A stretch of DNA of 64,000 bases from NCBI GenBank assembly GCA_032358255.1, contig JAULBX010015533.1, positions 186,001 through 250,000 of the forward strand. The letters are read 5' to 3'. The notes under the pieces are model-generated. The model searched no databases. It had not been told where the DNA came from and was given only the letters and a program-made list of their open reading frames with translations. Position numbers and translations under genes: made by a program. Below, in pieces: positions 10,236 through 61,163 of this stretch (positions within the stretch are counted from its first letter, which is position 1; each line of letters begins with the position of its first letter). The DNA comes from Heterotrichella gracilis. Lineage: Eukaryota > Sar > Xanthophyceae > Tribonematales > Xanthonemataceae.

Positions 10236-11243
10236 ATGCTGCGACTAGCCAAGCTCTCGACCCAAGGCCACTTGGCGCCAGTGCGATGCCGTTCAGCCTT
10301 CACAGTATGGCAACGAGCGTTCAGCGAAGGTATGCATATTGTAACCTCTCTGGTGAGCTGCTTCTGCATCCAGGACTGCTACAATTACCTTGGTGTTTTT
10401 TTTATGGGTGCATGCATATGCATGCATGTGAGGTATTGGGCTTACCAGGGCACCTATATTGGACCAGAAGCAACAACGAGCTTACTGGCATAGGTGAATC
10501 GAACGTGATACAACTGACAACAGACCAAGACTTCCGAACGGCACTGGAAGGCAAGTACAGTAGCATGGCACCACGTTTCTGCCTGCACTGGTGCTGCGCC
10601 CCTACTGACAACACAGTACTGTGTGGTTGATTGCAGGCCAGGGTGCAGCAGTGATAGACTTTACAGCCAAGTGGTGTGGACCATGTGAGTAGCTTTCACC
10701 CACCTGCAACTTGTTCCATGCCATCTGTTTCTGTCTATCTAGTGTCACCCATGCAATGCACACCCGCAGGCAAGATGATCACTCCCATCTACGAGGCGCT
10801 CAGCAAGCAGCACAGCGACGTGCGCTTCTACAAGGTTGACATCGATCTGGAGGAGATGGTGAAAGCGGCAGAAGAGAGCGGCGTCAACGCAGTGGTGCGC
10901 TCTAACCCTAAACCCTGACCCTAGCCCTAACCCTCCGGGTGCATAACGCAGCCTTCACTGGGCATGGCAGCACCTGGAACTACCTACCATAAGACACCAC
11001 AGCGCTCTGCACATGTGCGCATGCATGGTCTGCATCCAACGGCACGCCCTGGTCAGCTAGGGGCGGGTGTTAACGGCTACTAGGGTTTCTATGCGCGGTG
11101 TATTGGCCCTAAGCTAGGGTTTCCCATGCTTTGCGCAGCCCACCTTTTCCTTCTTCAAGGACGGGCGCAAGATCGCCTCCTTCAGCGGTGCAGACCCTAA
11201 ACAGCTGGAGCAGTACGTCCAGATGATCAAAACCGCACCCTAG
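10236..11243 (+). CDS. Mitochondrial-type thioredoxin
   Basis: Five exons (10236-10329, 10494-10550, 10637-10684, 10770-10894, 11139-11243) join in phase to 142 residues. Residues 1-31 form a basic, Ser/Leu-rich amphipathic presequence without acidic residues until its end, suggesting mitochondrial import. The thioredoxin fold follows, with the redox motif WCGPC at residues 63-67 (Cys64 and Cys67), the conserved buried Asp58 in IDFTAKW, and the cis-proline Pro109 in AVPTFSFF. It should reduce protein disulfides using electrons from an NADPH- or ferredoxin-dependent reductase. The motif and fold are certain; o/h-type and the compartment are inferred. The second intron (10551-10636) starts with GC rather than GT (G|GCAAGT); only this donor keeps the frame. 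The end of the last exon is repeated downstream at 11305-11389. Confidence 0.92.
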
Positions 11244-11389
11244 GGTAGGGTTTACCGCAGCGGCAAGAAGCGCCAGCAAACCCTTCAATTGGGCTGACAT
11301 TGCTCGGCTGGAGCAGGACGTCCAGATGATCAAAACTGCACCCTAGGGTAGGGTTACCGCACTGGCGTGAAGCACCAGCAAACCCTTCA
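11202..11389. repeat. Tandem copy of the thioredoxin 3' exon end
   Basis: Bases 11202-11287 hold the last 14 codons, the stop and the first 3' UTR bases of thioredoxin. Bases 11305-11389 repeat them with a few differences, including GTCCAGATGATCAAAAC, GCACCCTAGGGTAGGG and CACCAGCAAACCCTTCA. The copy has no start and is not expected to be translated. The spacing is about 103 bp. Confidence 0.9.
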
Positions 11390-12384: not shown

Positions 12385-12840
12385 CTACTTGGTCATTCAC
12401 CAGGTAATGGCAGGTGCTGGCATGCAGGTCCCGAGGCGCATGCGCCGCCATGGCCTCAGTGCAAGGCGCTGGTCCAGCACCCTGCCAGCCCCTCCACGAC
12501 CAGGCCCTGGCACTTTACCATGCTCCAAAAGCTCAGCCTGGATGAGCCAGCTTGGTTGCTCGGTCGCAAACTTCTGGTCTCCAGGAGAGTTTGTCACGAC
12601 TGTCGGCTGATCAGTAGTCCAGGTCGTGGCAGGTGCTGACATGCATCGCCTGGGGCGCATCCACCGCCATGTTCATGGTCTTGCTGGTGTAGCTTGGCGG
12701 CTGCTCGCCCTGGTCTTGATTGATCATCTGCCCCAGGAGAGGTCTGAAAAGCAAGATTCAGTAGTCCAGGTAGTGGCAGGTGCTGACATGCAGCCCCTGG
12801 GGCGCGTTCACCGCCATGGCAAGCACCCGCGCCAGCCCCT
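12385..12840 (-). repeat. Three decayed-to-intact copies of the F-box/LRR terminal exon end
   Basis: Read on the minus strand, the last codons of the F-box/LRR gene (APQGLHVSTCHYLDY then stop at 12758) are followed by a second copy (APQAMHVSTCHDLDY, stop at 12611) and a third, more diverged copy near 12395-12480 (APRDLHASTCHYLV). The offsets are about 147 and 219 bp. The extra copies lie beyond the stop codon, so they are probably 3' UTR. They match the pattern of exon-edge duplication seen elsewhere in the window. Confidence 0.88.
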
Positions 12841-15800: not shown

Positions 15801-18568
15801 GTGTGACCAGACTGGGTGCTGGCATTGAATAGTTCAATGCACACCGTGCAATATGACTGACCAACAATAGAGAGCTGCCTCAAAACAACAGCCCATTGTG
15901 TCCAAGTTTATGCCCGCCATTACTAGGGTACCCACAGTTAGAGTCAGGGTTCAGGGTGTGTAGCTGCCCCCGACGTGGCCGCAGTTGGGGCTTAGGGTTA
16001 AGGGTTCAGCGCTGCACTGTCGCGGCCTATACAAATTTCAATACAGTGTATGAGGGCTGAGGGTCAGGGCTTGCACCTGAGGTGGCTGCAGTTCTGCGCC
16101 ACGACCTTGATGCCCATGTCTGTGACCGCGTCGCAGTAGAACTTGTGGTCCAGGTCAAACAGGCACTCCTGGCCACCGCTGTTGCCCAGGGTGAGCTCCT
16201 CGAGGAAGGGGCACTGCTCAGACAGCCTGCGGGGCATTAGGGTTTTGTTTGTCGTACTAGGGTTTAGTTTGTTGTGCCCAGGGTGAGCTCCTCGAGGAAG
16301 GGGCACTGCTCAGACAGCCTGCGGGGCACAGGGGGCAAGCTGGGGGTGCATGTCTCTTGCCTTGAAAGTTAACATTACGACTTGATGCTCCAGAACTATA
16401 ATACCATACATTCATTGATGTTGCATGCAGCTCCAGCTGGTGCTCCAACAGCCAATGAACGACATGTGACAGGAATAAGTCTTGTTGAATGTTGCCAGAA
16501 TGAGGTCGTCCATCTTCGCCGGCCCCTCCACCACAATGTCCTAGGGTTTAGGGTTCAGACTTCATTTGGGAATCAATTGTGTGTCCCGATGCGCACCCAC
16601 CTTGCCAGGATGAGGTCGTCCAGCTTTGCCAGCCCCTCCACCACATTCACCACCGTCACGCTGCGCAGCCCCTCACCGACCTGGTGCCACAGGGACAGCA
16701 GGCAGTAGCGGTCTTCGTATGCCAGCTGGGGGGCGCGGGAGCGCCAGGGGCCAATGGGGCGCAGCCAGCTGGCGGTGCCGTCGTCGGTGGCTGTTAAGGG
16801 AAATTAACACATCTGCTGAACAGTACAATATGCAACCAACAAAATCAAATCACGTATCCAGCACAAGAGACTAGGTATCCAGCCTGTCGGTGCCCAAAGC
16901 ATGCTTGTCAATAGAGGTAATAGCAGGCAAATGATCCCCAGGGGGAGGCGCACCCACCTCTGCGCGTGGGCAGGCTGGTGGTGCGTGCGATGGCGGTGCT
17001 GCCATCCCCGCTGCCCAGGTCATGACACACTGTGGCGCAGCGCAGCGACCGGTACAGCTTGCGCTGGGTGCCAACTGGCGCGTGGGGGAGGGTGAGGTCA
17101 AGCCTGGTGGCCCGCCTGCAGTGGTACAGAGGGGGTTGTTGTTGTTGTTGTTATGGGGTGGTGGTGCCAGGAGGCGTGTTGCCAGCTCATGTGTGTGCAT
17201 GAGTGCAGCACAATCAACTCTATGGCTTTAATGTGCGGCGGGCATTGAGCGGGTGGGCCACCATAGGGTTGGTATATCAGGCATGCCCCCACAGCCCTGG
17301 GTGAGGGGTTTGCCGTTCAGGTGGTGCAGTAATACTTCCGGCCTACTGCAGTAGAGCGTTTATGTGCCCACTAATGACATGCAACCTCTATAGGTTGACC
17401 CACCTCACGGGTACCGACACCAGGCCTATCACCAAAACCCTACGCGAGGGTTTTCTTCGCAGGGTGCGGTCCCACCCCCAACAAGGGTTTCCATGCGCGC
17501 CCTCGGCCTACCTGCAGTACGTCGCCACATACTTAATCGCCATGGGGAGGTAGGTGAGCAGCTGGGATCCCAGCTCATCCACTTCGCTGCCCCAGGGAAG
17601 CAGCAGGTAGGACTGCAGGCGGGACACAAAGGCAAAGTCCTCAACACTCACCACCTCCTTCTCAGATAACGCGCCCTGCGGAGAAAAAGTGCGGTTGGAG
17701 GCAGTGGCATTTGGTGGGGTTGGGTGTGTGTGGAGTGGACCCTACATACACCCTTTTAACCATACTGTCTACCGGTCAGGAGCGACCCGACCAGCTCAAA
17801 GTCCACTCTGTTCTCTACCAGTCCTTGGACCAGCCCTGGTTTGCAAGTATGGATAAAAAGAGTCCTTTGGGTTGTTTTGGTGCAAGTCTAGGTGCAGCCA
17901 GCGCTTAAGTAGAGCAGGGCGTCCGGTGGCACGTTAGTGGTAGCGAGGCACACGCATGCATGCATATGCAAACGGTGTCATATCACCAACACGTTTTGTA
18001 GGGCTGTAACGCTTCGCATAAGGATAAAAGAGCTGCCTGATAGTGGCGCGGCGCAAACGGTGAAGGCGTGCACGACAATAGCCCCCGTGGCAAGGTCGCC
18101 TGCAGGTGACAGGTGCAACTTCACGCAGGTATCGCCACGATCCCACACCACGCAGCAGGAGTGCCACTGAATGAAACAAGTATGGAATACATGTGCTGCT
18201 GTGATCGCACCGATCGAGGACGTACATCGAGCGCGACAGCGCAAAACCCCGACACAAGCCTGTCGTGTGGTACCCCCCGTGCAGCGGATTGGTACCCACG
18301 CCCAAACCCCTGTAGTCACCCAGTCCCTTTTCAAAGTGGGTTGCGCACTTTGTCACCCAACAACGCAGCGCTTGGTGCTTGCCTGCCCACGGCGCATACC
18401 CTAACGTACCCTGGCCAGTCGCTGGAAGCCCTTGTTGACAACACAGCACACGGCGCACTCCGACACGCTGAGCCGCTTGAATATGGTTTCGGCCACGCCC
18501 TCCGGCAGGTCAAAAAGGTGTATGTCGGGTGGGGCATTTGCATCGGGAGCGGGCTGTGCGACCTCCAT
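12758..18568 (-). CDS. F-box / leucine-rich-repeat protein
   Basis: Eleven exons (18410-18568, 17512-17675, 16958-17115, 16601-16790, 16077-16226, 15537-15642, 14792-14968, 14378-14542, 13858-14077, 13355-13571, 12758-13121) join in phase to 689 residues. Residues about 15-53 form an F-box (LFDLPEGVAETIFKRLS, then a Cys/Val-rich helix), the SKP1-binding module of SCF ubiquitin ligases. From the fifth exon on there are cysteine-type LRRs of the AMN1/FBXL kind, such as KLALLRCNKVTDDGLTLLAQQ and HCSTISDQGLQTLTQCPFL. It probably selects substrates for ubiquitination; the substrate is unknown. The 735-bp first intron separates F-box and LRR parts. Four exon-edge duplications lie within or beside this gene. 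It is divergent from RRN3, sharing an 837-bp promoter region. Confidence 0.88.
13667..13690. repeat. TTTG microsatellite in an intron
   Basis: Five to six TTTG units lie in the intron between the 13858-14077 and 13355-13571 exons of the F-box/LRR gene, within a patch that repeats the phrase TAACATCCGTT. Confidence 0.8.
15112..15166 (-). repeat. Diverged copy of the 5' edge of an F-box/LRR exon
   Basis: On the minus strand this intronic segment would read ISEIVARETCTLMERVHLVA, a diverged copy of the start of the 14792-14968 exon (ISEHAIITVLETCTLMEHFH). No further exon sequence follows. It lies about 200 bp upstream of the true exon in transcript order. Confidence 0.75.
15349..15447. repeat. 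Five tandem 19-bp repeats containing ATGCAAAT
   Basis: The unit ATGGCCCACATTAATGCAA occurs five times head to tail, with one substitution (TTGATG for TTAATG), in the intron between the 15537-15642 and 14792-14968 exons of the F-box/LRR gene. Each junction creates the octamer ATGCAAAT. Confidence 0.95.
16181..16328 (-). repeat. Duplicated splice-acceptor edge of an F-box/LRR exon
   Basis: The 5' part of the 16077-16226 exon with its acceptor (16181-16236) is repeated at 16271-16328 almost identically, sharing CAGGGTGAGCTCCTCGAGG and GGGGCACTGCTCAGACAGCC. Between them lie TTAGGGTTTTG and CTAGGGTTTAG phrases. The upstream copy keeps an acceptor, so it is a potential decoy. Confidence 0.9.
16498..16655 (-). 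repeat. Duplicated 3' part of an F-box/LRR exon
   Basis: The 3' end of the 16601-16790 exon (16604-16655) is repeated in the following intron at about 16496-16543, sharing ATGAGGTCGTCCA and CCCCTCCACCACA. A CTAGGGTTTAGGGTTCAG tract separates the two copies. Confidence 0.85.
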
Positions 18569-19405: not shown

Positions 19406-22400
19406 ATGTTCTTTGGTGCTGCAGCCACCGCTGCAAACGGGCACGATGCCGACGTCAAGGAGCTGCTTCGTGACTTCGTCAGGGCTGCGTTGGAACAAAA
19501 GGCGAAGCAGGGAAAGAGCGAGCAGTACGACAAGTGAGTTGGGGTGGGGTCGGCCGTGGTTGCCAGAATACGCTGCAACGCATGGGTGCAAGCCTGTTTT
19601 CTAGCCACCTAAGCTGGCGAGATAAAATAAACGCTGTTTCTGACCCTTCCAGGCGTTGTTTAAGCAATCCACTCCAGGTTTCCCTTATGCATGCATATAC
19701 AAAACCCTAATACCCTTACACCAGTACCCTCTCAAACTCAGAGTGGGCCACAGCCTGTGGGTGCACATCGTTCCCTTAGGGTAAAGCTTGCGCTTACTAG
19801 TACTGCAAACCCAGCCTCCCTTCCTGTCCCCCTCTCCCCCCTGTGCCCACCCATCGCCACCACCACCACCGCCACCCATATCCGCACCCACCTCCATCCA
19901 CACCTCCACCCACACCTCCCACCCACCCCCACCTCCACCTCCACTCCAGGATCCTGGCCGAGGTGCAGCGGCAGGGCAGCGCCCCCGGGCGCGACGACGC
20001 CTTTGCTCGCGACATCCTGTGCGCCCTGACCGCCAGCGTGTCGCTCATCAAGGAGAAGGAGCATAAGGAACTGGTCAATGCGCTGCTCAACACGCGGCTG
20101 TGGGGGTGGCCAAAGGTGGGGGGTGGGGCTGGGCCAGTCAGCGCGCTGCTCAATAGGTGGCTGTGGGGGTGGCCAGGGGGGTGCGGTGGGGTGTGGCGGG
20201 ATGGGGTATGCAACGTGCTTGCAGCGCTTAAAAAACTTGAAGGCTGCGGCGTACCGACACAGCATGTCAACGCCAGCCCCTAGGCAGTGCCTGTTCAACA
20301 TGCACCCGTACCCCCACTCCATATAACCCCTCCCTTTGGCCCCCAGGCTGTGCGTCCTGCCCTCCTGCACGCCATAATCCTTTACTCCCCTTGCCCCCTC
20401 TTCAGGCTGTGCGCCCTGCCCTCCTGGAGTTCCTCTCCCACTTCACCCTGGCGCACGGCTCCATGCTCTACTTCTCCCTGCAGCTGCTGGTGTCGAGTCT
20501 CATACCCCCCCCTGGCGCCCTCCCCCCTGACGATCCGCAGCAGGGGTGGGTGGCGCCTGAGGAGTGGGTGGTCTTCATGGGGGAGGTGATAGCGGTGCTG
20601 GAACGGGTAGGTGTCGGCGAGGGGTAAAGTTTGGAGGAGGGGCGGGTGGAGCGAAATGTTGGTCCAGTGGGCCTTGTGGGGACGTGAAGTGCGGCGGGGG
20701 TACATGTTTTGCCTGATTACACTATATGGTAGGTCGGCAAACACATGTAATCAAGTGCATGAGGCGATAGTGGTGGTGGAGGGGGTTGTGATTGCTGTAT
20801 CGCAGCTGGGGTGTCTACTGTTTTAGGGTTCACCACTGAAGCACACTTCCAGTACAATTGCACGAGTGATCCCTAAAAAGCCACCTTCCTTCATATCCGG
20901 GTCCCTCACGCCGACCAAAACCCTACAAACCAAGCCAAAATTCTGCTGCAGATCCTGTCTCTCATGCCCATCGCCGCCCCCAAGCTGGTGCCCCTGCTGG
21001 TCAAATATAAACCCTACAACACCCCAATTAAAACCTTACAAATCTGCTGCAGATTCTGTCGCTCATGCCCATCGCCGCCTCCAAGCTAGTGCCCTTGCTG
21101 GCCAAGTCCATGCCCCACAAGGGGCGGGACCGCCACACCCACGCCGCCTACCTGACAGCGCTGTTTCGCCTGGCGGAAGGCGGCGCCGCCAACACCCTAG
21201 CAGACCCTATCCTGGGTGAGGTGGTCAAGCAGCTGCTGGCCATCGATGTGGACATTGAGTGGAATAAGCTGCCAGGGGTGGTGCACCAAGGGGAGGAAGA
21301 GGAGGAGGAGGAGGAAGAGGAGGTGGACATCTTCGAGCTGGAAGGTTGGTGGGGTGGTGGTGGTGATGGTGGTGTGGGTGTGGGGGTGCGATGGTGGGGT
21401 AAATGGAATGTTAGGGAGGGGAAGGGAGGGGGGGGGGAGGCAGTTCGTTATCGATGTTGACATGGAGTCGAACAAGCTGTCAGGGGTGGTACATCAAGGG
21501 GAGGAGGAAGGGGAGGTGGACATCTTTGAGCTAGAAGGTGGGTGGGTGGGTGGGTGGGTGGGGATGTGCCATGGGGACGAATGGTGGTGGGGAATGGGTG
21601 GTGGCGAGCGATGGGGATGCGTACATGGGGGTGGCAAATCTACCAGCCAATAACTTCTCCCACCTGGCAGCTTTGCTACATGGGCAGGACTGTACATGCG
21701 CCGGTCTATGCACATGCCCGTCTTGGCACATGCGCTGCCATGCATAGGCGGCCACATGCGCCGGCGCTGGCCTACCTGTGCGCTGTGCCGACCGTTACAT
21801 GCACCAGCGGCCCAGGGCAGAGAGAGCGCGGTGAGCCAAGTGGGGTGGGGTTTGGTTCTCAGGGTGTGGTGTATCACGACCCACACTCTCATGTTCACAG
21901 CTTAAACCCTTCTCACACCCTCCTCAAACCCTGCACACACCGCACCAAGCCTTCCTCAACCCATTCGGCTGCAGAGTTGAATTCAGTCCCAGTCTAAAAC
22001 TATGTTTTGAAACCTTTCCGCTGTGCTTCAGGTATGAAGGAGCTTCATCTGACCAATGGGGATGCAGGTGAGGGTGAGGCGGGTCCCCACCAAGGGGAGG
22101 AGGAGCGGCATCGCGGGGGTTGGGAGGGGACCATTGGGTCAGAGGAGGTGGGTGTGGCTAGGTTTAGGGTCTGGGGTTTGGGGTTGGAGGAGGTGGATGT
22201 GGCTGGGTTTAGGGTTCAGGATAGGAGGAGATGGGTGTGGCTGGGTAGGGAGCGGGGTGAGTGTGAATGTGAACATGGGACGGGAGGAGAGGTTGCAATG
22301 CCAACACTGGACAGGGCTGGTCTGTTAATACCTGAGGGTGGCTGTTTCAGGCTGCGACGGTATTCGCATCATTGTTACTTTGGAGCCAGCACCTGTGCTA

Positions 22401-25400
22401 CAATGTCCAGATGATATATCAGAGAAATCGACATAGAATTCTGAACCATACGACTACGAGATCGGCATGGAATTTAGAGCCGTGGATCAATCATTGAAAC
22501 ACATGGAATCACACAGGACCATACCCACCACCCACCGCCCACCCGCAGGCCAGCAGCTCCGAGGCCGCACGTGCTGAGGAGTGCGCCAACAAGCTTGACA
22601 CCCTGATGGAGCTCACACTGGAGCACCTGGAGCGGCGGTGTATGGGGGGAGGGGAGGCGCACGTGTGGGGGGCAATGGTGGGGGCGTTCGAGGGCAGCAT
22701 GCTGGGCACGCACAGGTGGGTGGGGTTGGGGAGGTTGGCCAGTTCAGCCCTAAACCCTGAAGCCTAAGCACTCGTGGGATCTCTCATCTCTTTCCCTGCG
22801 ACCTGTGTATGTAATACATCCCGCCTCTCTCCACCCATACTGATCCAAATTCACCCAGTTCCTACTCTTGACACACACCCTAAACGCAGATCTAAGTGCC
22901 TGCTGTTCTACTTGTGCATGCAAAATTGTTCCCTCCCCCCCTTCCACACACAAATGCCCCTTCCCCTCCCCTCTTCCAAGAGCCAAACTCACCCCTCCCC
23001 TTCCACTGTCCACCCCTTGCAGGTCCAAATTCACCCAGTTCCTGCTGTTCTATCTGTGCATGCGGGACCCCTCAAGATGTTCTCGCGCCTTCCTGGACCG
23101 CCTGTTTGCGATTCTTACAAACCCCTCGGCACCACCCGTGCACCGGAGCGCTGCTGTTGCCTACGTGGCGTCCTTCCTGGCCAGGGCGAGCTACGTGCCT
23201 GAACCGCTTGTGGCTGAGGCGCTGCACAAGCTTGGCGGGTGGAGCCTGAAGTGGGTGGGGGTGTGGGATGGCGGATGGGTGGGGGTGTGGGGGTGATACC
23301 CTAGGCAAGGGTTGCAGAGCTGCTCAAAGCTTGAGGGGATTGCGCCGCGATGGGGTCCCAGGCCTGGGAAGGGTTGGACAACAAGACCTTGCTTGTCGCA
23401 CGCATATACGCAGACCGCATTGCCTTTTGACGCATGCACTCTCATCCTCCCACACCCTCACATTTCCCCCTCTGCGTTCTTCAGGTATTGCCAATCGCAC
23501 GACACCCACGCCGCCGCCCGCAAGGCCGGCCCCATGTCCCACCTTGGCCCCTCAGCGCACCACCTGCTGGTACACACAGCATCAGCAGCAGCGGCAACCA
23601 GGCGCCACCAGGTCAGTGGCAATGACATTAATGACATGCATTTGGATGTAATAAGATATATTCATGGCGAATATGTGGATAATAAAAAAATCCATGCTGG
23701 CAGAGGTATGCTGCCAACGACATGTGCCAGACTAGCACTGAAGCATGCATCTCTCCAGTCTGTTGCGTATCTGATAGTCCCCTCGAAGCATTTTTCCTGT
23801 TTAGGGTTTAGGGTTTAGGGTTTTGTTCCTTGGCAACTGGTGTTCTTCTTGGCTGTCCAAGCCCTGCTGTACGCGCTGTGCTACCAGATGCAAACCCTAG
23901 ACCCTAAACCATTCTTCACCAGGTTTTCTTCTCAGCTGTGCAAGCCCTGCTGTACGCGCTGTGCTACCAGATGCAAACACTGCTGGCGGGGGATCCCGCG
24001 GGTGGCGGGGATCAGGGGGGAGAGGGGACGCGGGAGGAGAGGGCGAGTCGGAAGCGCGCCGAGGCTGAGGGGGCTGTGCGGAAGCTGGTGGCTGAGGTGC
24101 TGCCTAGGGTTTTGCAGCACGAGCTGAGACCCTTGGACGCCTGCCTGCCCACCGTGGTGGAGGAGTTTGCAAGGTAAGGGAGAGGGGAGGAGTTTAGACG
24201 TGGGTTAAAAGGGTGGGTAAACTAAAAGTCAAACAGTTTTTTTCTTCTAATTGTAAGTACATCTGTGATCCACGTGCATTAGGTCATACGAGCGCCTCTC
24301 CACGCCATGTGTGTGCAAGTAATGTATATTGTATATTGCTAATTTCTCAGCAATGGGATGTGGCAAATACCCTCGCTTGGCACCTGCTGAACGCCACCTC
24401 CCGCCACCCCCACCCACAGGCAAGCGCAGCAGCAGGGCCTCCTGGACCCCTCCCTCCAAGCCTTCATCACCGCCCCGCCCCCCCCCGCCACCAAGCCCTC
24501 CCCCCTCGACATGTTCTTCCCCTTCGACCCCTACCTCCTCTCCCGCTCTGCCCGCTTCCTCAACCTCCCAGAGAGCTTTGTGCAGTGGCGCCAGGGGCGG
24601 CCCGCAGGGGGGGTGACGTGGGACGTGAGCGACAGTGACGGGGAGGTTCTGGAGCATGCCGAGTTCATTGATGGGGCCTCGGAGGAGGAAGTGGAAGAGG
24701 AGGAGGAGGAAGAAGGTGGGAGGGGACGGGCGTGGTCCCTGGGGGGTTTCATTTGTGTCGGGGGACGGGCGCCATTTTTGAGGATTATCCCTTTGAGGCA
24801 ATGTGCACGATCCGCTGCACCCACCCACACCCCTACTGCCGCCCCCACCTTCACACCACCGCGCTGCGCCGCACCCATCCACCCCACCCCTGCACCCCCT
24901 TTCCTCTCCTCTCCTCCCCTCCTGGATTGTTAATAATACCCTTGGCGCAGTGCCCGCTCACACACCCCTTGTCCATCTTGCAGGCAGCAACAGCTCTCTA
25001 ATTTTCCTAAGATGTAACTTTCGTTTTAATTCAAATGGATTTGTTGATATATGTTCTGTTATTCTATGCAGGCAGCAGCAGCGACAGCGAGTGGGGCTCG
25101 GAGCGCATGGACGTCGGCTCACTGGACGCGCCCACCCACCACATGCACATGCAGTCCAAATCATCCAGCTTCGGTTTCCGACCCTTGGGCCACCCCTCAG
25201 GCCGCGCACATGACCCTCAAGCAGCCGAGGGCTCCTCCTCCTATGGTGGCAGCAGTTTACCCTACGGGGTTTCGTACCAGGGCAGCGACCTAGGGTTTGG
25301 GACCAGCCCCTTTGGGGTTTCACCCACCGAGGGCGGCCTAGCGGCCATGTCTTGCACGCCGGATGTGGTGCATGACGGGGCGGCGGTGATGCATGCGGTG

Positions 25401-27539: not shown

Positions 27540-27990
27540 TAGGGCTACTGGCTGCTGCGGTGCTGTTAGGTTGCATTGATAAGGGCGATATGCATGATGA
27601 TCAAAGTGCACACCAATGAATCCCTGCACTTACATCTCTCGCTGCCATGCAGCTGCTGGAACCACACCCCGAGGACTGCCGCGGAGCCCATCCCTTGGTG
27701 CCGCAGCCGATGCGCGTCATGTAATTGTTGACGACGCGTGCGCGCTGCCGGGCTGGCAGCTATGCTGCGCAGGCAGTGCCCCCGCGGTCGGCAATTGCAT
27801 GCCGTGCATCGCCTTCGGGGCCAGTTGGAGGGTGAGAGGGGCCACCAAGACTGGAAGGGCAACTATGTATGGCGCAGCACCAATCTATTCCTTGCAAAGG
27901 TATATTTATACCTTATAAGGTGGCAACTCTTGGAGGTGGGTGCATGCCATTGGATTACATTGACAGGGGTCAGATCCTCTATCCTCGTAT
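27540..27990. repeat. Repeat-cluster copy, well conserved
   Basis: It holds the whole pattern from GTGCACACCAATGAATC through the core at 27711 to GGTGGGTGCATGCCATTGG and a GTCAGATCC tail. Confidence 0.8.
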
Positions 27991-28144
27991 GAAATATCAC
28001 TTGTAAGATGTGGATAATGCCATACTGGGATTTGGCAAGCATTGAGATCCTTTTTTTTTGGCATGTTTGTAAGCATTGCAGCACCATTCATTCATTAAAA
28101 AACATACTTATTCTTTACTTAATACCTTTTTATGTATATACGCA

Positions 28145-37124: not shown

Positions 37125-40100
37125 TCATTGCCCACCCGCTGCATCTGCATTCTCCTCCGCATTTGCCGCTCCATCTTGGTCGGGCACCACAGCCACCACA
37201 GCTGCTGCAGCCTCATCCCCCTCCCCTTGCTTTGGGGATCTATTGGCATTAAGCTGCTCCCCCATGCTCCCCTCCTCTTGCTCATTGTAAACGGCATAGG
37301 GCGCCTCGTCCTCCCCTATGCCATCCTCATACAACTCCCCATCTGCCACCCCAACCCCCTTTCCCCCATCCTCCTCCCCATCCCTCGAGGAAACCCCCGG
37401 CGCGCCCGCCTCCCCTCCTATTTCCATCCAATCCTCCCTCCCCTGCACGGTTTCCTCCCCCTTGAGAGTCTGTGCCACCTCATCATCCAACTCCATGGCC
37501 TGCCGATCATCACCGCCACGTGGCGCAAACGTGGCCTCCGACCCACTGGGGATGGGGTCTGGGGATTCCTGTGCGGGCGGGTGCCCGAAAGGCTCCCCAG
37601 ATTCCAGCGCTGGGGATGCGTTGGCGATCAGCGGGGATGACGCGCACCGGTCGAGGGTCGGCCCGGAAGGCTCTGCACAGGCAGGAACAGGGACTTAGTG
37701 TCAATTGCCAAGCATTTCTGACGGCCCATACAGAGTGCTGATACCGGGAAAACAACACGTGAAAAGCGCCCTGCTAATCTATACCCAGGAACGCAATTAC
37801 CCAGCTCAGTGCAAACACACACAAATATCGCGATGTACTTCAAAACACAGGTGTTTGTGCACATGACCGTCCATCACCACATGTCAGCCGTGCAAACAAG
37901 CCATGCCCCCCCCCCCCACCCCCCACCCGCCACGTCAGCCGCATCCGCCACCGCAGCCGCAGCCGCAGCCATTGTCACCCCACTGGCCCTACTGGACAGC
38001 ACCCGCACCACACCCGCAGCCACCCCCGAGGGCTTGCGGGGGGGGAGGGGGGGCTTGCTGGTGGAGGGCTTGGCTGGTGGCGGTGGGGGTGGCATGGCGG
38101 TGGATGGGGACGGGCCGGAGGGGGTGGGTGCCTTGTCTGGGGGTTGCCACTGGGTGGCGCGTGGGCGGGGGATGCGCAGGCCTGCAGGGGTGGCGGAGGG
38201 GTGGTGGAGCGAGGTGGACAACAGGTGGGAGGATAGGGCAAGCAAGTTGCTCTGAGTGTCAAGATGAGTAGCCTGTGATTCCAAATGCAACGGGATGTAC
38301 TACATACATACCATTGTGCTGCATATTTTATGCATGAAACCCATTGCGGCATAAAGAGGTCTGGCTCACGTGACATCCAAAGATATATATGTCTCTCCCC
38401 CGACCAACCCATGTTCCATCCTGATCCACTGTTTTCACCCTATTGCAAGTGAACGCCCCCCACCCCCACCCCTCACCTGCCCCCAGCGTTACGCAGGGCC
38501 ACGTCAGCCCCCCCTGCTCCCCACCGCCACCACCAGCCTCACACGTGCGCACAAAGTCCTGGACCTGAGGAGGGGGGGAAGGAAAGCCGGGTCATTTCCC
38601 TTTGCAGCAGTGCAGCCAGAGCGCAGTTGTCACACTTGCAAGATGTAAAATTACATACTTGATGGCTGTTTACTACGCCACCCAATCCGATTAAACTTTG
38701 TAATCAGTTTACTTTGCCAATCAATAGTCGCTTCATGCCAGCCAGTAAAACCTGTATAAACCTTATCAGCCCTGAACAATAGCAAACTACAACCCTAACC
38801 AACCCCCACCTGGCGCAGCGTGAGCGCATCCATTGCATCCAGGTCCAGGTCAATCCCTGCATCCTATCAATTGCAAATCCCAACCAAACCCTCCACAAAC
38901 CCTGACCAACACCCCAATGCACCCCACCTGGCGCAGCGTGAGTGCATCCATTACATCCAGGTCCAGGTCAATCCCTGCATCCTCCCCGAGACCAGGCGCC
39001 AGCCCCGGGTATCGCTGGAGCACCAGGGAGGTGACGGTGTCAAACTGCTCGGGGGAAAGCTGGCTCAGGCCGTGAGCCACCTCATCCTGAAGGGGGGGGG
39101 CAGGATGTGTGTGTGAGAAGGGCCCAAACAGAATATATGGAATGTCCATGCCATCACCCTACCGTATATGGTATGCGCACGCCATTTGTGTCGCATGCTG
39201 GTGAGAACACCCCCACCGCCACATATTTCTTCGGCGTTGACCTAAAAGCCCGTCCTTCCCCACACACCTCCTCCCGGTGTGGCGCACGCCACTGGGTGGA
39301 GCATTCCCCCCTTCACCCCACCACCCTGTCACCGCCTGAGCTGGCGCAACCCCCCCCCCCTCACCCACCTTTTCCTGTGATGTGAGCGGCGCACATGCTG
39401 CCGCCGCCTGGCTCTTAGCATCCGACACCCGCCCTTGCAGCTCGTCTAGCTGCTTCAGGAGGAGCGCACACTTCTCCTCGTACGCCTCCTGGACCTGGAT
39501 GCGGGGATAGGGCGTGGGGATGAAATTAGTAATTTCTCAACAGTTGGATTTTGTTGAAATACGAGAAAAGTACTTCAGTCCTCATACGCCTACTGGACCT
39601 GGATGTAATGGAGAAGGGGGTGCGGGGTATCAATTTTGATTTGACCCAAGGAACATAGGGCGTGGGCAAGGCAGCGGTACCACCAGGAACAGGGGAAAAG
39701 AGGGTACTATGGCCAGGGAAGAACAAGGGACACGGGATTGCATGCAGTTGCATTGTACCCCCCAGCCAGGGTTGCGCCACGCGCTACATGCTACACTGTG
39801 CATGGTCATTACGTGAACACTCCTGCCCCACCTTCCCCTCTCCTCCTTTCCATCCCACCATGCACTCCACACCCTTCATTGTGCACCAAAACCCTAATGA
39901 TGATGCCCCCACCTTCCCCTGCGCCGCCTCCTGGTGCCTCTTGACTGCCGCAGCCTCCTCCTGGCGGCAGGTAGCTGAAACCCTAAACCCTAATGTTAAT
40001 AACCCACCTTCCCCTGCGCTGCCTCCTGGTGCCTCTTGACTGCTGCAGCCTCCTCCTGGCGGCAGGTGGTTGTCTCCTCCTGGAGCCGAGGCACAACCAC

Positions 40101-42174: not shown

Positions 42175-44050
<1,876 letters not shown>

Positions 44051-45568: not shown

Positions 45569-48500
45569 TCACGTGCACACCCTTACCATCCCCTCCTCGC
45601 TGCACACCACCACCAGGCGAGACTGCGGCAGCATCAGAAGCGCAGAGATGGCAGCACTCGAGTGCCCGCCCCTCGCCCCCACCAGCCGGGTGGGCTGCAG
45701 CACGTGGCTAGCAGGCGCCGCCAGGGATGCCAGGCCGATGTTTGCACCCCAGTGGCAGATGACGTCGTCCCCGTGGACGGAAACCCCGCCGAGGGTTTCC
45801 GCAGGGGTGCGGTAGGAGTGGATGCAGATGGGGTTGCCCAGGCGGGGCGCGTGGGCGGGTGGGGCCTGGTGGGGATCCGTGTGGTTGCGCACCCCCATGC
45901 GCAGGTCCCACAACCGGAGGGAGCCGTCCTGGGCACGTGGGGTTGCGAGGCGGGGTCAGAAACCCTTACAGGTTTGAGGCCAGAACCCTATTGATTAGGG
46001 ACCAGGACCCCTACTAGGCGCGTGCCGAGGCAGTGCGGGGGTGGGTGGCCACATGCACAGGAGCAAGCATTTAATGCGGCTCTGCGGGATGTGACAACAT
46101 GTGGGTCCACCAGTGGTTCCTGGGCTGGGATGGGGAATGCGGTGGAGTGCAACATGCTCTGGATGCAGCGTTCAACAGCAGGAAACCACATCATGCAGCA
46201 ATCCACCCCACCCGCCCACCCACCCACCTGGGACGCCGTGAGAAGGGTGTCCCCCGTGCCCCCCGCCACCCGCACCACCGCCCCCTCGTGCGGGTGCCAC
46301 CACCACAGCACCTCCCCGCAGCGCGCATCCGCGATGGCCACCTGCCCCCCCGCCAGGCCCGCCCCCACCCACCAGGAGGAGGATGAGGCACCGGATGCAT
46401 GCACCGCAGTCACCGCCACCCCATTATTGCCCTGCACAGAGGGGAGATTTTTTCCAGTCGAACATGTTCCAGCAAGCTGTGCAAGGGTGACTGCTAGCCT
46501 GGCTGTACTGCTGCAACACATGTAACAGATCCACTTCAGAGCTTGAGTTGAAGGCAGGCATATGGCCTATTACAGCAGAGCTGAGTGGCGCAAGCTGGCC
46601 AAGGGTGACTGCCAACCTTGCTGTACTGCTGGAACGCATGTAACAAACCAGCTCCAGGGTATTAGATTTAGGGTTGTGCAGGCCCGCACCTGTGCCTTGA
46701 AGTCAGCCGGCAGGCAGCTGATCTGCGAGTCAATGCAGCCCACCACGGGGTCAATAAGATGAATCCCCCCGGCCGAATTTCCCGCCACAAATGTGGGCCG
46801 CCCCGCCATGCCCCCCCCTTGGTCCAGGCAAGTGTACCCCCCTGGCACCTGCCCTCCCCTCCGGGTGGTTCCGCCTGGCGCTGATTTGGCACTGTCTGCA
46901 GTGCCTGCTGAGGTGGCAGTGCCAGGTGGCACAGCCCCGTTGGACGGGTGATCGCTGATGGCGTTGAGGTAGCGCCAGCCTGGGAGGTGAGGGGCAAATG
47001 GCATTCACAGCTGTACTGTACTGTAATGTTCTAGCATCTCTTATGTTCATTTTTTGCTCGAGAAACATGAGCGCTACCGCGGGGTACACCACCACTGTTA
47101 CAACCGGAAAGAACAGAAACAGTGAATGGTGGAGCGCAAACAGCGACCCATTACCTGGGGCACTCGTGACTGTCAATAGAGACATGTGAATGCGGCTGCA
47201 GCGGCTACAAACACATGCACCTGCAAGTCATGACATTCCCCTTCCCACCTGTGTTTTTGTAGTACTGGCCCCCTCCCCCGGGTATGACCGCCCCCTGCGC
47301 CCCGCTGGCCCCGCTCCACAGGTGCAGCGCCCCGCCTGCGTCGCATGACGCCACGCATGCCGAGCCGCGATCCAACAGGCTGAGGCAGGTCACTGGGGCC
47401 TCGTGCTGAGTGTACTGGATGACTGCACAAGGGATATAAGAATAAGAGCAATAAGGAGTACCCATTATTGTTCGCGTTGGGTACCTTACGCTGCGGCGCA
47501 AGGGCTATCCTACGTTGGTAAAATATTAGCGACATGTATTCTCGCCATACAGCAACATTTGAAGGCTGCGCCAGATCACAGGGGCCTCGTGCGGAGGTTA
47601 CTGGATGGCGTGGTCTGGAATCAAACTTGCTGATAAAATATAGCCTTGTATGGAGTCAGATAACTAGCCAGCCTGTAGCCAGAATCATGATGTCGCCATG
47701 CGTTTTGGGGTTATGACCAGCATTACCGGCACATGATCGAAGCCCTTTTAAGAGTGACCCACCATTCACCACGCAACACCACTCCAAAATCCTGTCCTAG
47801 GGTCTCCCACCCACCACCCCATACCTGCTTCGCAATCCGCCAGCTCCCAGCACCGCACCACATGCGCCTCCCCCACTCCGCCCCCACCCCCCAACCCCCT
47901 CCCTGCCGTCAGCAGCAGCCTCTCCCCCCCATCCACAGCCGCCGCCGCCAGCCCTCCATCCCTGTGCGCCCGCCACTGGTGGCACACCCGCGCCCTCAGC
48001 TGCCACCGCCGTCGCCACCAAGGGGAGGAGTGGGTACTGGGGAGGAGACCTGCGCGGTGGGGGTTGGGCAAGGAGGGGTGCTGGTGAGAGTCTTTGGTGG
48101 GATGGTATTTGAACCCGACTTGGTGATCCATGCTCCAGGGATGACTGCTGTGCACATTAAATGCTTCACACCCCAACTTTGCCCAAAGAGGATGTGCATG
48201 TGGAAGCTGATCCCCTGAGCAGCACCTATCCTGCGTGTTCCGGTAACTACCATTAATTCTGACAGGGTTCACAGAAACAGCAGACGACCCCCCATGCCAC
48301 CCCACCCATGCACCCCACCATGCAGGCGCCTGTCCCCCACCATTCACCTCACCTGCCCTGCTGCGCGCTACTCCCCGCGGCCCCCTGTCTCCCCCTGTCA
48401 CATCCGCCAGGTCACTCCCCTGCCATCCAGGCACCCAGCTCCAATCCCGGCCACTGGTGGTGGTACGGTGGGCGGCTGCGGCTGCGACTTGGCTGGCACG

Positions 48501-56738: not shown

Positions 56739-59700
56739 ATGAAGCCTTTACCAACTATGGGTTGTGTCTCATGGTGGGCGTTAACTGTCATCCTGCTGGG
56801 GTTTGTGCTTGGGGTCACTCCCCAGGAGGCAGAGGAGGAACAGGTCAAGCCAGCCCATGACACAAGGAGGTCACTGTGCAGGGCGGATGAACGAGTGCAC
56901 GCCTTCTACTACCTGTGGTAAGCCCTGAGCCACTTCAAACAAGGCGTTTTGACCTCTACGTCACTCAGATCAGGAGCATCATGGGGTCAACTTGACAGAT
57001 CCAGACCAACCCCTGTGCAGGTATGGCAACCCAGAGACAGATGGCAAGTACAAGCACTGGGACCACGAGGTGCTCCCACACTGGAACCCCGCCATACGGA
57101 AGCAATACCCTTCAGGTACTGCAAAACCCCTCAGCACTTTGCGCATGGGCGGAATATGAATATTTGCCAAGGAAGGGTGTTGACCAGTGCGTTGTTGTCC
57201 CTCCCACTGCAGGACACCGTTTTGCACCCCCAGACAACTTGCACTCGCCCTTTCACCCGTTTCGGGGCGCCTACAGCTCGCACAACCTCTACACTGTCAA
57301 GGTGAGCTGCTACTGTGCCACTTTTAGCACTGAACTGACCTGCTTGAGCAACTGACTCCGCACAGCCAGTTCTTTCTGGGCTTTGCCCAGCATGGGTTTT
57401 CTCTGGCACTTGCTTTCTCCGCAAGGGGATACAGTAAGGATGGTGACAGGCGCTTTGTCCTTGCAGGACCAACTGTTGGAGCTGCAGGCAGCAGGCGTGC
57501 GAGTGGTGGTGAGTTGCCATGCGCTGCGAGCCATGCAACCCTACTCACCATCCCACTGCCCTAAGCACGCCCGAATCATGGCAATACACCCCACGTTGGC
57601 ACAGGCCGGGAGAGGCTCTGCAGCAGAGCCACCGTCAGCACTCAGCACCCATAATCTCAAAACCGGATACTCCGTTGACGCCCACACTCTCAAAAAACCA
57701 TGAAAATGGTCATGACTGGTGGCATACTTTAGATGCCTGTGAAGCAAAACAGGGTGGCGAGTGTGTATTAGCGTCTGGAACCCCCCACCACCACCACATT
57801 CACACACACGCCTTACCCCCCCCTCGCAGGTTGCCTCCTGGTGGGGCCCTGCGTGGCGCGACGGCTCCACCGACACCCAGGGCGTGACCACTGACCTGGT
57901 GCTGGCAACGCTGTTCCAGGCAGCGGAGGCAACGGGCAGCAAGGTGGCGCTGCACATGGAGCCGTACCCAGGTGGGAACCCAAGGCTAGGGTTTGTAGGG
58001 TGGTCTGCATGGGGCAGCAAGGTGGCGCTGCACATGGAACCATACCCAGGTGGGGTTAGGAACCCTAGGCTGGGGTTTGTTGGGTGTTCTGTAGGGTTTG
58101 TAGGATGGTCTGCGGTGGGGCAGCAAGGTGGCGCTGCACGTGAAGCCATACCCAAATGGGGTTAGGAACCCTAGGCTAGGGTTAGGTCATGGTTTCTAGT
58201 GCGGCGCTGCACGTGGAGCCATGGCCAGGTGCGCATGGCCGTACCAAATGCACACGGCCGCTCTAGGAGGGTGTTGGTAGGGTATGGCCTTTGGAGCCAC
58301 CGCCCGCACCTACCTCCATACACCAACACCCCACCCCACCCCCTGCACCCCACCCTTGCAGGCCGCAGCACCTCCACCATCCGGGATGACCTCGCCTACC
58401 TGACAAAAACAGCACATTCCACCTACCCATCATAATTCATATGTCATTTTAATCCTGCTTGATTTGTCACTCACTTTGCAGGGCGCAGCACCTCCACCAT
58501 CCGCGACGACCTCGCCTACCTCACCCGCAAGTACAGCTCCTCCCCTGCGCTGCTGCGCTTTGCCAGCCGCCCCGTGTACTACGTGTATGACTCATACCAC
58601 ATACGACCCCACGACTGGGCGCGCCTGCTGGCGCCGGGGGGCAACGAGAGCGTGAGGGGGACGGGGCTGGATGGTGCGTGGCGGTTTGGTGGGACGGGGG
58701 GAGGGGGGGAGGGAGATGTGGCTGTGAAGGGCATAGGCTGGATGGTGATGGTGGTGGCCACTGTGGGTGGGCGTTTTGGTGAAGGGAGGGGAGGAGGTGT
58801 TGGGGAGGGGGACTGTGAGCGGGGGTGGGCTGAATATTGGCTGTTGGCGCCAAAGGGGAACAGAATCGTGAAGGGGATGGGGCAGTGGTCTGGTCACCTG
58901 CATTTGTACACGCAACACACCACCCACCATCCCATGCCGCCATTGAATGGCACCATCGCATGCCACCATGCATGCCAACGCGTAACCCCATGCCACCTTG
59001 CGCAGGCTTCTTCATTGGCCTGTGGCTGGGCCATGCTGATGGGGACCAGGAGATCCTCCCCTCGGGATTTGACGGCTTCTACACCTACTTTGCATCGGAG
59101 CAGGTGTCGTACGGGGCCAACCCTGCCAACTGGGCGGAGCTGCACAGGTGGGGCCAGGGGCAGGGTGGTGGGATATGGGGGCGATGGTTGGGGAGGAGGT
59201 TATATGGGAGTGTGGAAGATGGTGGGGCGCTTCGGGGTGCCAGGGATGCTGCCTTTTACTTTATAGGGATTCTGCCCTACCAGGACGTACTCTCTACATA
59301 TTCTTTGTGGCGGAGCAGGTGTCGTACGGGGCAAACCCTGCCAAAACTGGGCGGAGTTGCACAGATAGGGCCGGGTAGAGGGGGTGGTATGTTGGAGCGG
59401 GCGATTTGAAGTGGCGGCGAGGATGCAAGACCAGGTGGTGGGGGGGGTGCATGCAGGGGCATATGGCAGGTGATGGGGGTGGGGACTACAGTGGTACGGA
59501 TGTGCACGAGGGTGTGGGGGGTGCAGTGGTAAGCAGTGCGAAGTGCGGGGTGGTGGTAGGGCGATGAGCATATGGAGCACCCTGATGGGAAGTGTAGGAG
59601 GGTGCATGTGGCGCCCATGTGCTTCAAATCCAGCAAGGCGTCACCCAGGGTAGATATGTTACATATTACATGTTCTAAGCATTAAATTACATACTACAAA

Positions 59701-61163
59701 AAGGAAAACTATTTACTAAACGCTGGCTCCCTCTCGCAGGTGGGGCTCTGCGCACGGCAAGCTGTTTGTATCCAGCGTTGGCCCAGGGTACAACGACACA
59801 CGCATCCGGCCGTGGAATGAGCTGGCCACTAGGGGAAGGGAGGGGGGGATGAGGTGAGGGGGGTAGGGTGGGGGAGGTGTGCGTTCCATTTTGAGATTGG
59901 TTGGGTAACAAGGGGGGGAAAGGGAGGGAATAGGAAGAGGTGGGTGGTGGTGGGGGCATCTGGAACAAGGTGGGGATACATTTAAAGGGATGGAGAGGAG
60001 AGGAGGGGAGGGGACGAAGGTGGGGGTGCGCGCTTCCTTCCAGCTCTGTAGTAAGCTGAGTGTCAGAGGGAACGAAGGTGGTGTGTGTTTTGGGGCTGGT
60101 GTGCCCTCCCTATATTGACCACCTCCACCATGACCAGCACAACCCTAGAACCCTAAGTCCTAAATCGCATTCACTGCTCACCCCAAGTGGTCACAGGCAC
60201 CAGCCTCAGCCTGAACCACTATTAAACCCTAAACCCTAAACCTAAACCCTAGTGCTTGACTCTGAACCCTAAGCCTAAACCCTAATCAGTAAACAACGTA
60301 CCCCTGACCCCCAGGTACCAGCGGATGTGGCAGCAGGCAGTGGATTCCTCCGCTGACGTCATCTCCATCACGTCATACAACGAGTGGGGCGAGGGCACGC
60401 AGATAGAGCCGGCTGCGTGGGACCTGGGGGAAAACAAGTAAGGGGCAGGGGGACAAGGGGGGGGGGGGGCCAAGGGGGCGAACAGCTGCAGCATGGCCAT
60501 TGCTGTGCCTAACACCACGCCAATACTGGCTGTTGCACATGCTAATTAGCTGTCGCTGTTGTCCCCAAGTTTATCAAAACGGAGACAGGTTGCTGCAACA
60601 CTTCAACTGCCTAAAAAGGCATTGAGCACTTTTGAACCTTTGTTTCAGGCACTCGTGGTCGTCCTCAGGCCACCATCGCAAATAATAGTGAATAGTAATG
60701 TACTAAACACGATACTATTTCACTGATAGTATCTTGTACTATACAAGATAATTAAAAAAAATTGAAGTAGCACAGTGCGTGCCCATATATGGTCTGGCTA
60801 CTGTTGCATGATGCATGTGTGCACCGCATTTAAATTATGATCCCCAACTACACCCACAGGTTTGGGTACGACAGCTATGGCAGCCAGCCCGGCTCCGAGC
60901 AGTTGTACCTAAACCCTAAACCCTAACAATTACACCCTAAACCCCACAGGTTTGGGTACGACAGCTATGGCAGCCAGCCCGGCTCCGAGCAGCTGTACCT
61001 AAACCCTAAACCCTAACAATTACACCCTAAACCCCACAGGTTTGGGTACGACAGCTATGGCTACCAGCCCGGCTCCGAGCAGCTGTACCTCAACATCACC
61101 AAGGGCTTTGCGGAGGCATTTGTCAGCAAGGCCAAGGCGAGCTGGGCCAAGGAGGAGCTGTGA
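56739..61163 (+). CDS. MANEA: Glycoprotein endo-alpha-1,2-mannosidase (GH99)
   Basis: Ten exons (56739-56917, 57021-57115, 57213-57301, 57467-57508, 57830-57971, 58482-58673, 59006-59147, 59740-59853, 60315-60437, 61040-61163) join in phase to 413 residues. A short N-terminus and the hydrophobic WWALTVILLGFVLGV (residues about 12-26) fit a type II signal anchor, placing the enzyme in the Golgi lumen. GH99 hallmarks include HAFYYLWYGNPETDGKY with HWDHEVLPHW, the loop VVASWWGPAWRDG, VALHMEPYPGR, and the catalytic segment TSYNEWGEGTQIEPA (Glu355 and Glu358, matching the known catalytic pair). The enzyme removes glucosylated mannose from N-glycans, a route around glucosidase trimming. Four exon edges are duplicated in introns, more per length than in any other gene here. 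Three equivalent acceptors precede the last exon; only the third gives the full C-terminus. Confidence 0.93.
57934..58230 (+). repeat. Four copies of the GH99 exon 5 donor edge
   Basis: The exon end GGGCAGCAAGGTGGCGCTGC followed by ACATGGAGCCGTACCCAGGT is repeated in the intron at 58012, 58118 and, shortened, 58201. Each copy is followed by CTAGGGTTTGTAGGG-like phrases. The spacings are about 78, 106 and 83 bp. Copies 2 and 4 keep the CCAGGTG donor; copy 3 does not. Confidence 0.93.
58352..58531 (+). repeat. Copied acceptor edge of GH99 exon 6
   Basis: Bases 58354-58410 repeat the true exon start at 58474-58531, sharing CGCAGCACCTCCACCATCC and GACCTCGCCTACCT. The upstream copy retains its AG acceptor in the same phase but meets a stop codon shortly afterwards. 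Confidence 0.92.
59076..59368 (+). repeat. Copied donor edge of GH99 exon 7
   Basis: The exon end 59076-59147 is repeated at about 59291-59367, sharing GGAGCAGGTGTCGTACGGGG and GGGCGGAG-TGCACAG. In the copy the donor has become CACAGATAGG and is no longer a GT site. Confidence 0.9.
60223..60250. repeat. Interstitial telomere-like tract
   Basis: Four near-perfect AAACCCT units in the intron before GH99 exon 9. Confidence 0.95.
60860..61095 (+). repeat. 90-bp unit repeated three times at the last GH99 exon
   Basis: Units start at 60860, 60950 and 61040. The first two are 90 bp and differ at a single base. Each has a 51-base exon edge (GTTTGGGTACGACAGCTATG onward to CTGTACCT) followed by AAACCCTAAACCCTAACAAT and TACACCCTAAACCCCACAG, which supplies the next acceptor. 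The third unit continues into the true exon. Confidence 0.98.

Follow-up and report, generated by a model that had tools for sequence, protein, structure and literature searches.

In the genome of Heterotrichella gracilis (Xanthophyceae), exon ends together with their splice signals are copied repeatedly into the adjoining intron, far above chance. The phenomenon is seen in a window of 64,000 nucleotides (contig JAULBX010015533.1, positions 186,001 to 250,000), for which an original prediction, made from the letters of the DNA, had claimed recurrent copies at about 17 exon edges in five genes. We count 15 such edges in the same genes (thioredoxin 1, F-box/LRR 3, RRN3 4, BET 2, GH99 5), all with copies in direct orientation and of 44-119 bp, save two short RRN3 copies of 26-27 bp. 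The cleanest case is an acceptor edge of the F-box/LRR gene, where the segment 16183-16236 is identical to 16275-16328 with zero changes, and the two are separated by a 38-bp filler that contains TTAGGGTTT-like words. In the following, the copy at the exon is called real and the additional one a decoy.

We analyzed base by base 314 kb of this one genome (68.5 Mb, 903 contigs), i.e. the window and 25 stretches of 10 kb, altogether 26 loci and 0.46% of the total. The 25 places were chosen blind to sequence, on contigs from the results of a (TTTAGGG)3 search and once on the window's own contig; because contigs were drawn from this 21-mer search, those without the (TTTAGGG)3 word lie outside the sample. 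Our own ungapped scan at offsets of 18-520, from which low-complexity and short-period matches were removed, yielded 88 local direct repeats, of which 75 have a gap of at least 8 bp between the copies (the "filler" class) and 13 are head-to-tail. The filler class comprises 59 sites at a single exon edge, 3 at a multi-copy edge, 5 in noncoding DNA, 2 containing an exon, 2 with coding sequence on both flanks and 4 inside one exon, while random placement of the segments gives 19% edge, 63% noncoding and 17% inside exon. Border copies are therefore far commoner than noncoding duplications of the same type (59 + 3 versus 5), as had been predicted. Use of BLAST self-comparison as the only detector was abandoned, since it leaves short-offset tandem repeats unlisted (e.g. 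6719-6833 in the window); the exon-edge bias persists between the two methods, with noncoding sites rising from 5 of 90 by BLAST to 11 of 88 by the ungapped scan, 5 of these 11 with filler.

It could be argued that ordinary tandem duplication occurs everywhere and becomes visible at exons only through the conservation of one copy. Constraint on one copy does halve the divergence, and the identity of the copies declines with distance (Spearman -0.32, n = 130), as this explanation would have it. However, it is contradicted by the young part of the filler class: at 90% identity or more, we find 24 sites at a single edge and 1 at a multi-copy edge against 1 noncoding site (besides 1 that contains an exon and 2 inside an exon; the other 35 of the 59 edge sites are below 90%). 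Noncoding head-to-tail repeats of at least 90% identity, on the other hand, are detected at 4 sites, so that one-copy conservation cannot explain the edge bias, and we regard this explanation as highly improbable. The head-to-tail class itself (4 edge, 1 multi-copy edge, 6 noncoding, 2 inside an exon) shows little edge bias, although its 13 sites are too few to exclude a weak preference. Two intronic minisatellites without filler, at 6719-6833 (40 bp x 2.9) and 15349-15448 (19 bp x 5.3) of the window, belong to this control class.

The same picture emerges when the exon borders are compared with their own introns. Probes of 60 nt taken from the exon edges match the own intron at a score of at least 36 in 74 of 856 cases; the same probes against foreign introns, and reverse-complemented probes against the own intron, each gave 0 of 856, in agreement with the predicted locality and direct orientation. 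Probes placed deeper match less often: 9 of 330 for exon sequence 70-130 nt from the edge, and 21 and 16 of 724 for intron sequence 10-70 nt and 40-100 nt in, respectively, compared with the rest of the own intron; we assign some of these matches to multi-copy edges. Copies occur about equally often at donors (33/428) and acceptors (41/428), and stop codons also behave as edges (11/58). Inverted local repeats were found in none of the 26 loci at E 1e-4, and a looser search in the window gave four minus-strand near matches, three of which are palindromes. As predicted, the effect is wider than the window: it holds for the 25 sampled stretches taken together (no site in 9 of them) and is visible in the genome-wide word counts described below.

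All these counts refer to predicted gene models, as the exon edges rest on our own small gene finder trained on the 314 kb. Its signals are a CAG/GTGAG-like donor and a TGCAG/G acceptor (the slash marks the splice junction), with a median intron of 256 bp before cleaning, in which 64 of 608 predicted exons (decoy copies or exons shorter than 12 bp) were dropped, leaving 544 exons and 428 introns of at least 40 bp. Pfam returned a fitting family for all nine predicted proteins submitted: chromate transporter (PF02417), thioredoxin (PF00085), an LRR protein (with the F-box itself unmatched), CAF1B-type WD40, amidase, glutamine synthetase, cation ATPase, RRN3 (PF05327) and bromodomain, with the BET family itself at 24.3 bits, just below its cut-off of 24.5. 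The GH99 exons were confirmed by tblastn with the proteins of relatives; among the named records of the 120 matches listed, those nearest to the GH99 protein come from green algae, with 56% for Chlorella variabilis, 53-58% for Micractinium and 47-54% for volvocaleans. SAHH, SCCPDH and WDR81-like are names taken over from the original prediction and are putative here.

Two features not contained in that prediction are plain: the copies consist mostly of exon with little intron, and their spacing is bimodal. Among the 35 filler-type edge sites of at least 88% identity (hereafter, young sites) the exon part is the longer one in 34 (p = 2e-9; 2 of the 35 have a negative intron part owing to a misplaced exon edge and were scored as exon-longer), with medians of 51 nt for the exon part and 9 nt for the intron part, and the intron part measures 0-18 nt in 31. 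At stop codons, 3 of 8 alignments end within 1 nt of the codon and 5 extend 36-110 nt past it; therefore the sharp border is weaker there. The identity of the copies spans 70-100%, and the exonic part is free of gaps in 28 sites of at least 88% identity, while older copies have indels. A negative correlation between the lengths of exon part and filler was set aside, since it is induced by the cut at 125 bp.

The copies could instead be an assembly artefact or the outcome of recombination between diverged alleles or haplotypes, for which a third-position bias combined with loss of homology in introns would be fitting. Nonetheless, 12 of the 14 sites of at least 92% identity lose homology within 18 nt of the exon, where such alleles should align, the copies differ by 0-30% between sites, and whole-genome searches with one GH99 and one SAHH exon give one locus each plus the GH99 decoy (the DNA search with GH99 exon 58482-58753 matches only itself and its own decoy). 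We find this explanation hardly credible.

The third-position bias also bears on the question whether decoys are functional, i.e. retained by selection because they serve as alternative exon ends or regulate splicing, while their other parts decay. Real copies and decoys differ at 85 first, 71 second and 191 third codon positions; a neutral decoy alone predicts 74 at the third. We estimate that the surplus may reflect an exon copy changing at synonymous sites about twice as fast as the decoy, or else a decoy that was once constrained. A functional role would also be in line with the gapless exonic parts, with homology that stops just beyond the splice signal in most young sites, and with the 3 stop codons found in decoys against 7.3 expected. 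However, the stop deficit is not significant (P = 0.067), the exon copy alone can yield the third-position excess, older copies carry indels, and the spacing is not a multiple of three, being flat modulo 3 (remainders 0, 1 and 2 in 21, 18 and 20 cases). The flat spacing and the insignificant deficit led us to reject decoys as in-frame alternative exons, and we consider function in the broader sense quite improbable. As to the predicted creation of decoy splice sites, it stands to the extent that splice signals are copied into introns.

The fillers between the copies are often telomeric. TTTAGGG occurs 48 times in the window, where 6.0 are expected, and the 21-mer (TTTAGGG)3 occurs 834 times genome-wide, with 0 for the reversed control. 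A telomere 7-mer is present in 31 of the 59 fillers, compared to 11.3% of length-matched noncoding stretches (p = 1e-14). The predicted enrichment between copies is also borne out by the 90 BLAST sites of the 26 loci, with a telomere 7-mer in or beside the gap in 36 versus 13.6 +/- 3.1 upon random placement (maximum 23 in 1000 trials). Across loci, the density of duplications rises with that of telomere words (Spearman 0.79), and edges with such a word within 70 nt carry a copy in 41 of 167 cases, the others in 33 of 689 (odds ratio 6.5). Short copies below the threshold follow suit, with 18 of 97 tract edges (foreign introns 0/97) and 21 of 563 edges without a tract (foreign introns 1/563). 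Direct repeats flank 68 of 174 tracts less than 60 nt from coding sequence, 16 of 75 at 60-120 nt, 7 of 71 at 120-250 nt and 2 of 61 beyond 250 nt, while foreign flanks give 1 match per distance class and word-free random points give 9.5, 11.0, 4.5 and 0.9%.

At acceptors, 11 of 12 single-orientation sites have the C-rich form of the tract on the sense strand, and at donors 8 of 14 do, counts that leave out two sites with both orientations and in which a few multi-copy sites are misplaced; the CCCTAAA bias at acceptors probably reflects selection for a pyrimidine tract and a branch point. Genome-wide, the donor-like word CAGGTGNG is followed within 30 nt by CCCTAAA in 902 matches (17 for the reversed-pattern control) and by TTTAGGG in 1305 (control 23), an excess of about 50-fold in counts where overlapping matches at one site are counted more than once. 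CCCTAAA on the upstream side gives 326 matches versus 14 for the control, part of them acceptor-like.

These associations raise the possibility that the telomere tract comes first, with interstitial tracts at intron edges stalling replication forks, so that the nascent strand slips back and re-copies the exon end. A telomere word after the real copy and the decoy alike, seen at 13 of the 59 sites, would be expected in this case, as would its presence after the decoy in 11 of 24 sites of at least 90% identity, compared with 99 of 782 copy-free edges. Yet decoy-side tracts are also explained by arrays, slippage should copy in the intron direction too, tracts far from exons seldom have flanking repeats and 28 of the 59 fillers contain no telomere word, all of which makes this order of events improbable.

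The second regularity concerns distance. Among 130 copies, 44 have offsets of 80-120 bp and 33 of 180-220 bp, with only 4 at 160-180 bp and peaks near 105 and 195 bp. Genome-wide pairs of CAGGTGNG show the same preference (631 at 50-80 bp, 1089 at 90-120 bp, 660 at 130-160 bp and 884 at 180-210 bp, with controls of 43-59). The two values are close to half and one nucleosome repeat length; candidate explanations are this correspondence, or a single and a double step of about 100 bp. In the filler-type edge class (59 sites) the copies lie 65-426 bp apart (the limit of the scan is 520) and the median filler is 65 bp. An age gradient along arrays, in the manner of a conveyor belt, was considered and rejected, as the nearer copy is more alike in 16 of the 25 pairs of neighbouring copies (p = 0.23) and the nearest beats the farthest in 12 of 21 arrays. 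The GH99 array at 60853..61094 has a unit period of 90 bp and CCTAAACCCTAAACCC filler.

We propose, with a probability of about 0.45, that the copies are products of error-prone DNA repair, in which local re-copying is combined with telomeric filler and the outcome is filtered by splicing. Of the classes of mechanism at hand, repair or replication suits the data best, being in agreement with the filler, the direct orientation, the locality, the telomeric inserts and the greater length of the introns. The process would begin with a break or a pair of nicks at the end of a coding exon, to be repaired by short local templated synthesis that duplicates some 30-100 bp at the exon end and extends slightly beyond the splice signal. 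The new end would then be joined through filler, often with telomeric repeats either added by telomerase or captured, giving a first exon end, the filler, a second exon end and then the intron. The splicing filter would let pass those products in which the splice signal beside the exon body is intact, and the rest would be lost; at acceptors, the filler, usually CCCTAAA on the sense strand, could provide the pyrimidine tract and a branch-point-like CTAA. Repeated events or unequal pairing of copies may lead to arrays with a period near 100 bp.

Several observations weigh against this proposal. Evenly distributed breaks predict noncoding filler-type duplications about 3 times commoner than those at edges, whereas they are more than 10 times rarer; likewise, flanking direct repeats accompany just 2/61 tracts more than 250 nt from coding sequence versus 68/174 within 60 nt. 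The cut-off at 0-18 nt outside the exon in 31/35 young sites is tighter than random copying gives, the two preferred spacings are not predicted, and there are the 28/59 fillers that lack a telomere word. A splicing filter could tighten the cut-off, but it cannot remove noncoding events. Either exon ends are the target of breaks and copying, or breaks within exons are repaired in another way than those elsewhere.

The first of these options shades into an alternative in which RNA or chromatin steers the copying to exon ends, with cutting or template switching at the border, so that the copy stops just outside the splice signal. Exon-bounded RNA-DNA hybrids, nucleosomes on GC-rich coding exons or spliceosome-linked RNA would be the candidate markers of the exon. 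The tight border, the near absence of noncoding filler-type events, the GC content of 0.64 in exons versus 0.51 in introns and spacings of about half and one nucleosome repeat agree with it. On the other hand, stop codons act as edges without a predicted splice site, and most stop-edge alignments extend well past the codon. GC content is insufficient, and was rejected as the only cause, as noncoding DNA of GC at least 0.60 amounts to 27.8 kb, yet only 4 noncoding filler-type units are that GC-rich. Nor do exons show a specific depletion of CpG that would be a sign of exon methylation (observed/expected 0.59 in exons, 0.48 in introns). Guidance of this kind appears possible to us, though on balance unlikely. 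We are a shade more reserved about its full form, in which a border-recognizing process (RNA, splicing or chromatin) would repeatedly copy exon ends and splice signals outward, each step covering about 100 bp and bringing in filler of telomerase type; introns would thereby grow from their edges and acquire decoy sites.

Introns are known to be gained by tandem duplication of an AGGT-holding segment, after which each copy adjoins an exon and the new intron separates the two. The duplicated splice signals and the direct orientation are common to that process and to our sites; however, at our sites a single copy adjoins the exon, the other being within the intron or the 3' flank, and the class with coding sequence on both outer sides comprises 2 of 88 sites. 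Tandem repeats made by slippage, which are head-to-tail, without filler and without edge preference, correspond to the separate class of 13/88 (5 edge, 6 noncoding, 2 in exons). Introner-type mobile introns place the same insert at many unrelated loci; at our sites the copied part is locus-specific, and fillers were compared among loci for telomere words. Internally symmetrical stwintrons of Hypoxylaceae (PMC8469720) are likewise odd repeated structures at intron ends, found in one lineage, but they are introns within introns, and the portion of that paper available to us describes no copied exon sequence.

As far as the accessible parts of the respective reports go, two related processes are established: vertebrate genomes acquire duplications with filler through repair (Pace et al. 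2009, PMC2671141), and telomeric sequence is inserted at breaks, in some cases together with a duplication of the target (PMC2246262, PMC7215372). With the former process our sites share short, closely linked duplications, junction filler and splice sites among the copied sequence. Close linkage (less than 5 kb, one chromosome) is evident from the short distances between copies and the 0/856 matches in foreign introns, and a breakpoint with filler, deletion or microhomology from the gap of at least 8 bp in 75/88 sites. However, the human donors given in Table 2 of PMC2671141 are 278 intronic and 4 partial exon/intron, a predominance reported as a feature of the human set, not as a definition, and reversed here (59 of 75 at edges, or 62 with multi-copy edges, and 5 noncoding). 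The human filler measures 1-68 nt (Table 1 of the same paper), while ours has a median of 65 nt and is often telomeric, and no fixed spacing is reported for the human set in the sections available, whereas preferred spacings exist here. Among telomeric insertions, a plain duplication is present at 4.6% of 130 in rodents, at 16% of 25 in primates and at 4.5% of 66 in the horse, where complex events add 3.0% more, and human insertions look random, with 31% in introns, according to the accessible parts of PMC2246262 and PMC7215372. Telomeric repeats at the junction, characteristic of insertion by telomerase, are present in 31/59 of our fillers and missing from 28, and the contrast between tracts within 60 nt of an exon (68/174 with flanking repeats) and those far away (2/61) sets our case apart from interstitial telomeric insertions. 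No title or abstract opening in our searches, which covered mainly literature outside the subscription journals, describes exon-edge copies with telomeric filler, and nothing that we found in print, as far as accessible, predicts the anchoring to exon edges.

Introns with copies are longer than those without (median 390 bp, n = 80, versus 272 bp, n = 348), as expected if copying enlarges them, and contain a telomere word in 60/80 versus 129/348 cases. Genes differ strongly: edge matches are heterogeneous over loci (chi2 65, 25 df), and 28 of 53 genes with at least 6 edges have no match. At one extreme the cation ATPase gene (stretch L031, 1-4104) has 0 copies at 18 edges and no intronic telomere word, and at the other GH99 has 25.9 words per kb. 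Copies are rare or missing in the genes of stretches L031, L015 and L023 and in SCCPDH of the window, and numerous in other genes, be it on the same stretch or elsewhere; in the three stretches intronic telomere words are near absent as well. Few intronic telomere words are also seen in a predicted gene of stretch L019 (7504-9317), whose protein we take to resemble phage-type lysozyme and which is possibly a recent arrival. Absence of copies had been claimed for SAHH, SCCPDH, CHR and the WDR81-like gene. No edge copies were seen in SAHH and SCCPDH of the window (0/18 edges in the latter), but the WDR81-like gene has one of 84%, and so does the 3' end of the chromate transporter gene (79%), if this is the gene meant by "CHR".

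Extrapolation from the 314 kb suggests that one genome holds thousands of such steps, tied to exon borders and at all stages from 100% to about 70% identity. Intron lengthening and the origin of splice sites are usually inferred from old traces. The present system opens direct questions about breaks, R-loops or nucleosomes at exon ends, about telomerase in internal repair, and about the choice of a splice site beside a near-identical decoy.

Table 1. Copied exon edges in the 64,000-nucleotide window (window coordinates).
Feature	Position	Strand	Details
Chromate transporter, 3' end	3249..3420	-	coding-end copy 3341-3420, 3'-flank copy 3249-3327, 79%; PF02417
Thioredoxin, stop codon edge	11204..11389	+	copies 11204-11287 and 11307-11389, 90%; telomere-like phrases within and ahead; PF00085
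F-box/LRR, stop codon edge	12400..12818	-	coding copy 12758-12818; decoys 12611-12671 (92%) and 12400-12452
F-box/LRR, acceptor edge	16183..16328	-	54 bp (44 exon + 10 intron) at 100%; filler 16237-16274 with TTAGGGTTT, TAGGGTTTAG
F-box/LRR, donor edge	16492..16645	-	real 16602-16645, decoy 16492-16535; telomeric filler
RRN3, acceptor edge	20939..21105	+	decoy 20939-21004, real 21040-21105; filler with AAACCCTA; PF05327
RRN3, copied exon end	21242..21553	+	21242-21360 and 21450-21553, 76%; coding read on both outer sides ("both" class)
RRN3, intron ahead of exon 23023	22715..23022	+	two exon-start copies (26-27 bp), 142 and 180 nt off
RRN3, acceptor edge	23839..23981	+	decoy 23839-23898, real 23922-23981; telomeric filler; 3 TTTAGGG units upstream, 23800-23820
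BET gene, donor edge	38804..38983	-	decoy 38804-38865, real 38922-38983, 97%; Pfam bromodomain
BET gene, donor edge	39886..40067	-	decoy 39886-39972, real 39982-40067, 91%; CCCTAAA in filler
WDR81-like gene, acceptor edge	47377..47607	-	real 47377-47421, copy 47563-47607, 84%
GH99, donor edge of exon 57830-57971	57934..58183	+	real 57934-57993; decoys 58012-58077 and 58118-58183; exon confirmed by tblastn
GH99, acceptor edge of exon 58482-58753	58356..58524	+	decoy 58356-58404, real 58476-58524, 92%
GH99, donor edge of exon 59006-59147	59078..59399	+	real 59078-59183, decoy 59293-59399
GH99, acceptor edge of exon 61040-61163	60853..61094	+	decoys 60853-60914 and 60943-61004; real 61033-61094
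GH99, stop codon edge	61143..61292	+	real 61143-61199, copy 61234-61292, 83%; TTTAGGGTTTAGGG at 61322

The table includes, in addition to the 15 edges of the five genes, the two further copied edges of the window, one belonging to the WDR81-like gene and one to the chromate transporter gene (3' end). At the stop edge of the F-box/LRR gene the homology between 12758-12818 and 12611-12671 stops at the stop codon. Elsewhere in the window, about four direct repeats of 200-440 bp, 73-84% alike and 0.4-2.1 kb apart, occupy 27553-30284, a region of doubtful gene models, and this family is possibly a decayed mobile element or a satellite. The region of the WDR81-like gene also contains a 203-bp imperfect palindrome (54751-54953), 71% self-complementary.

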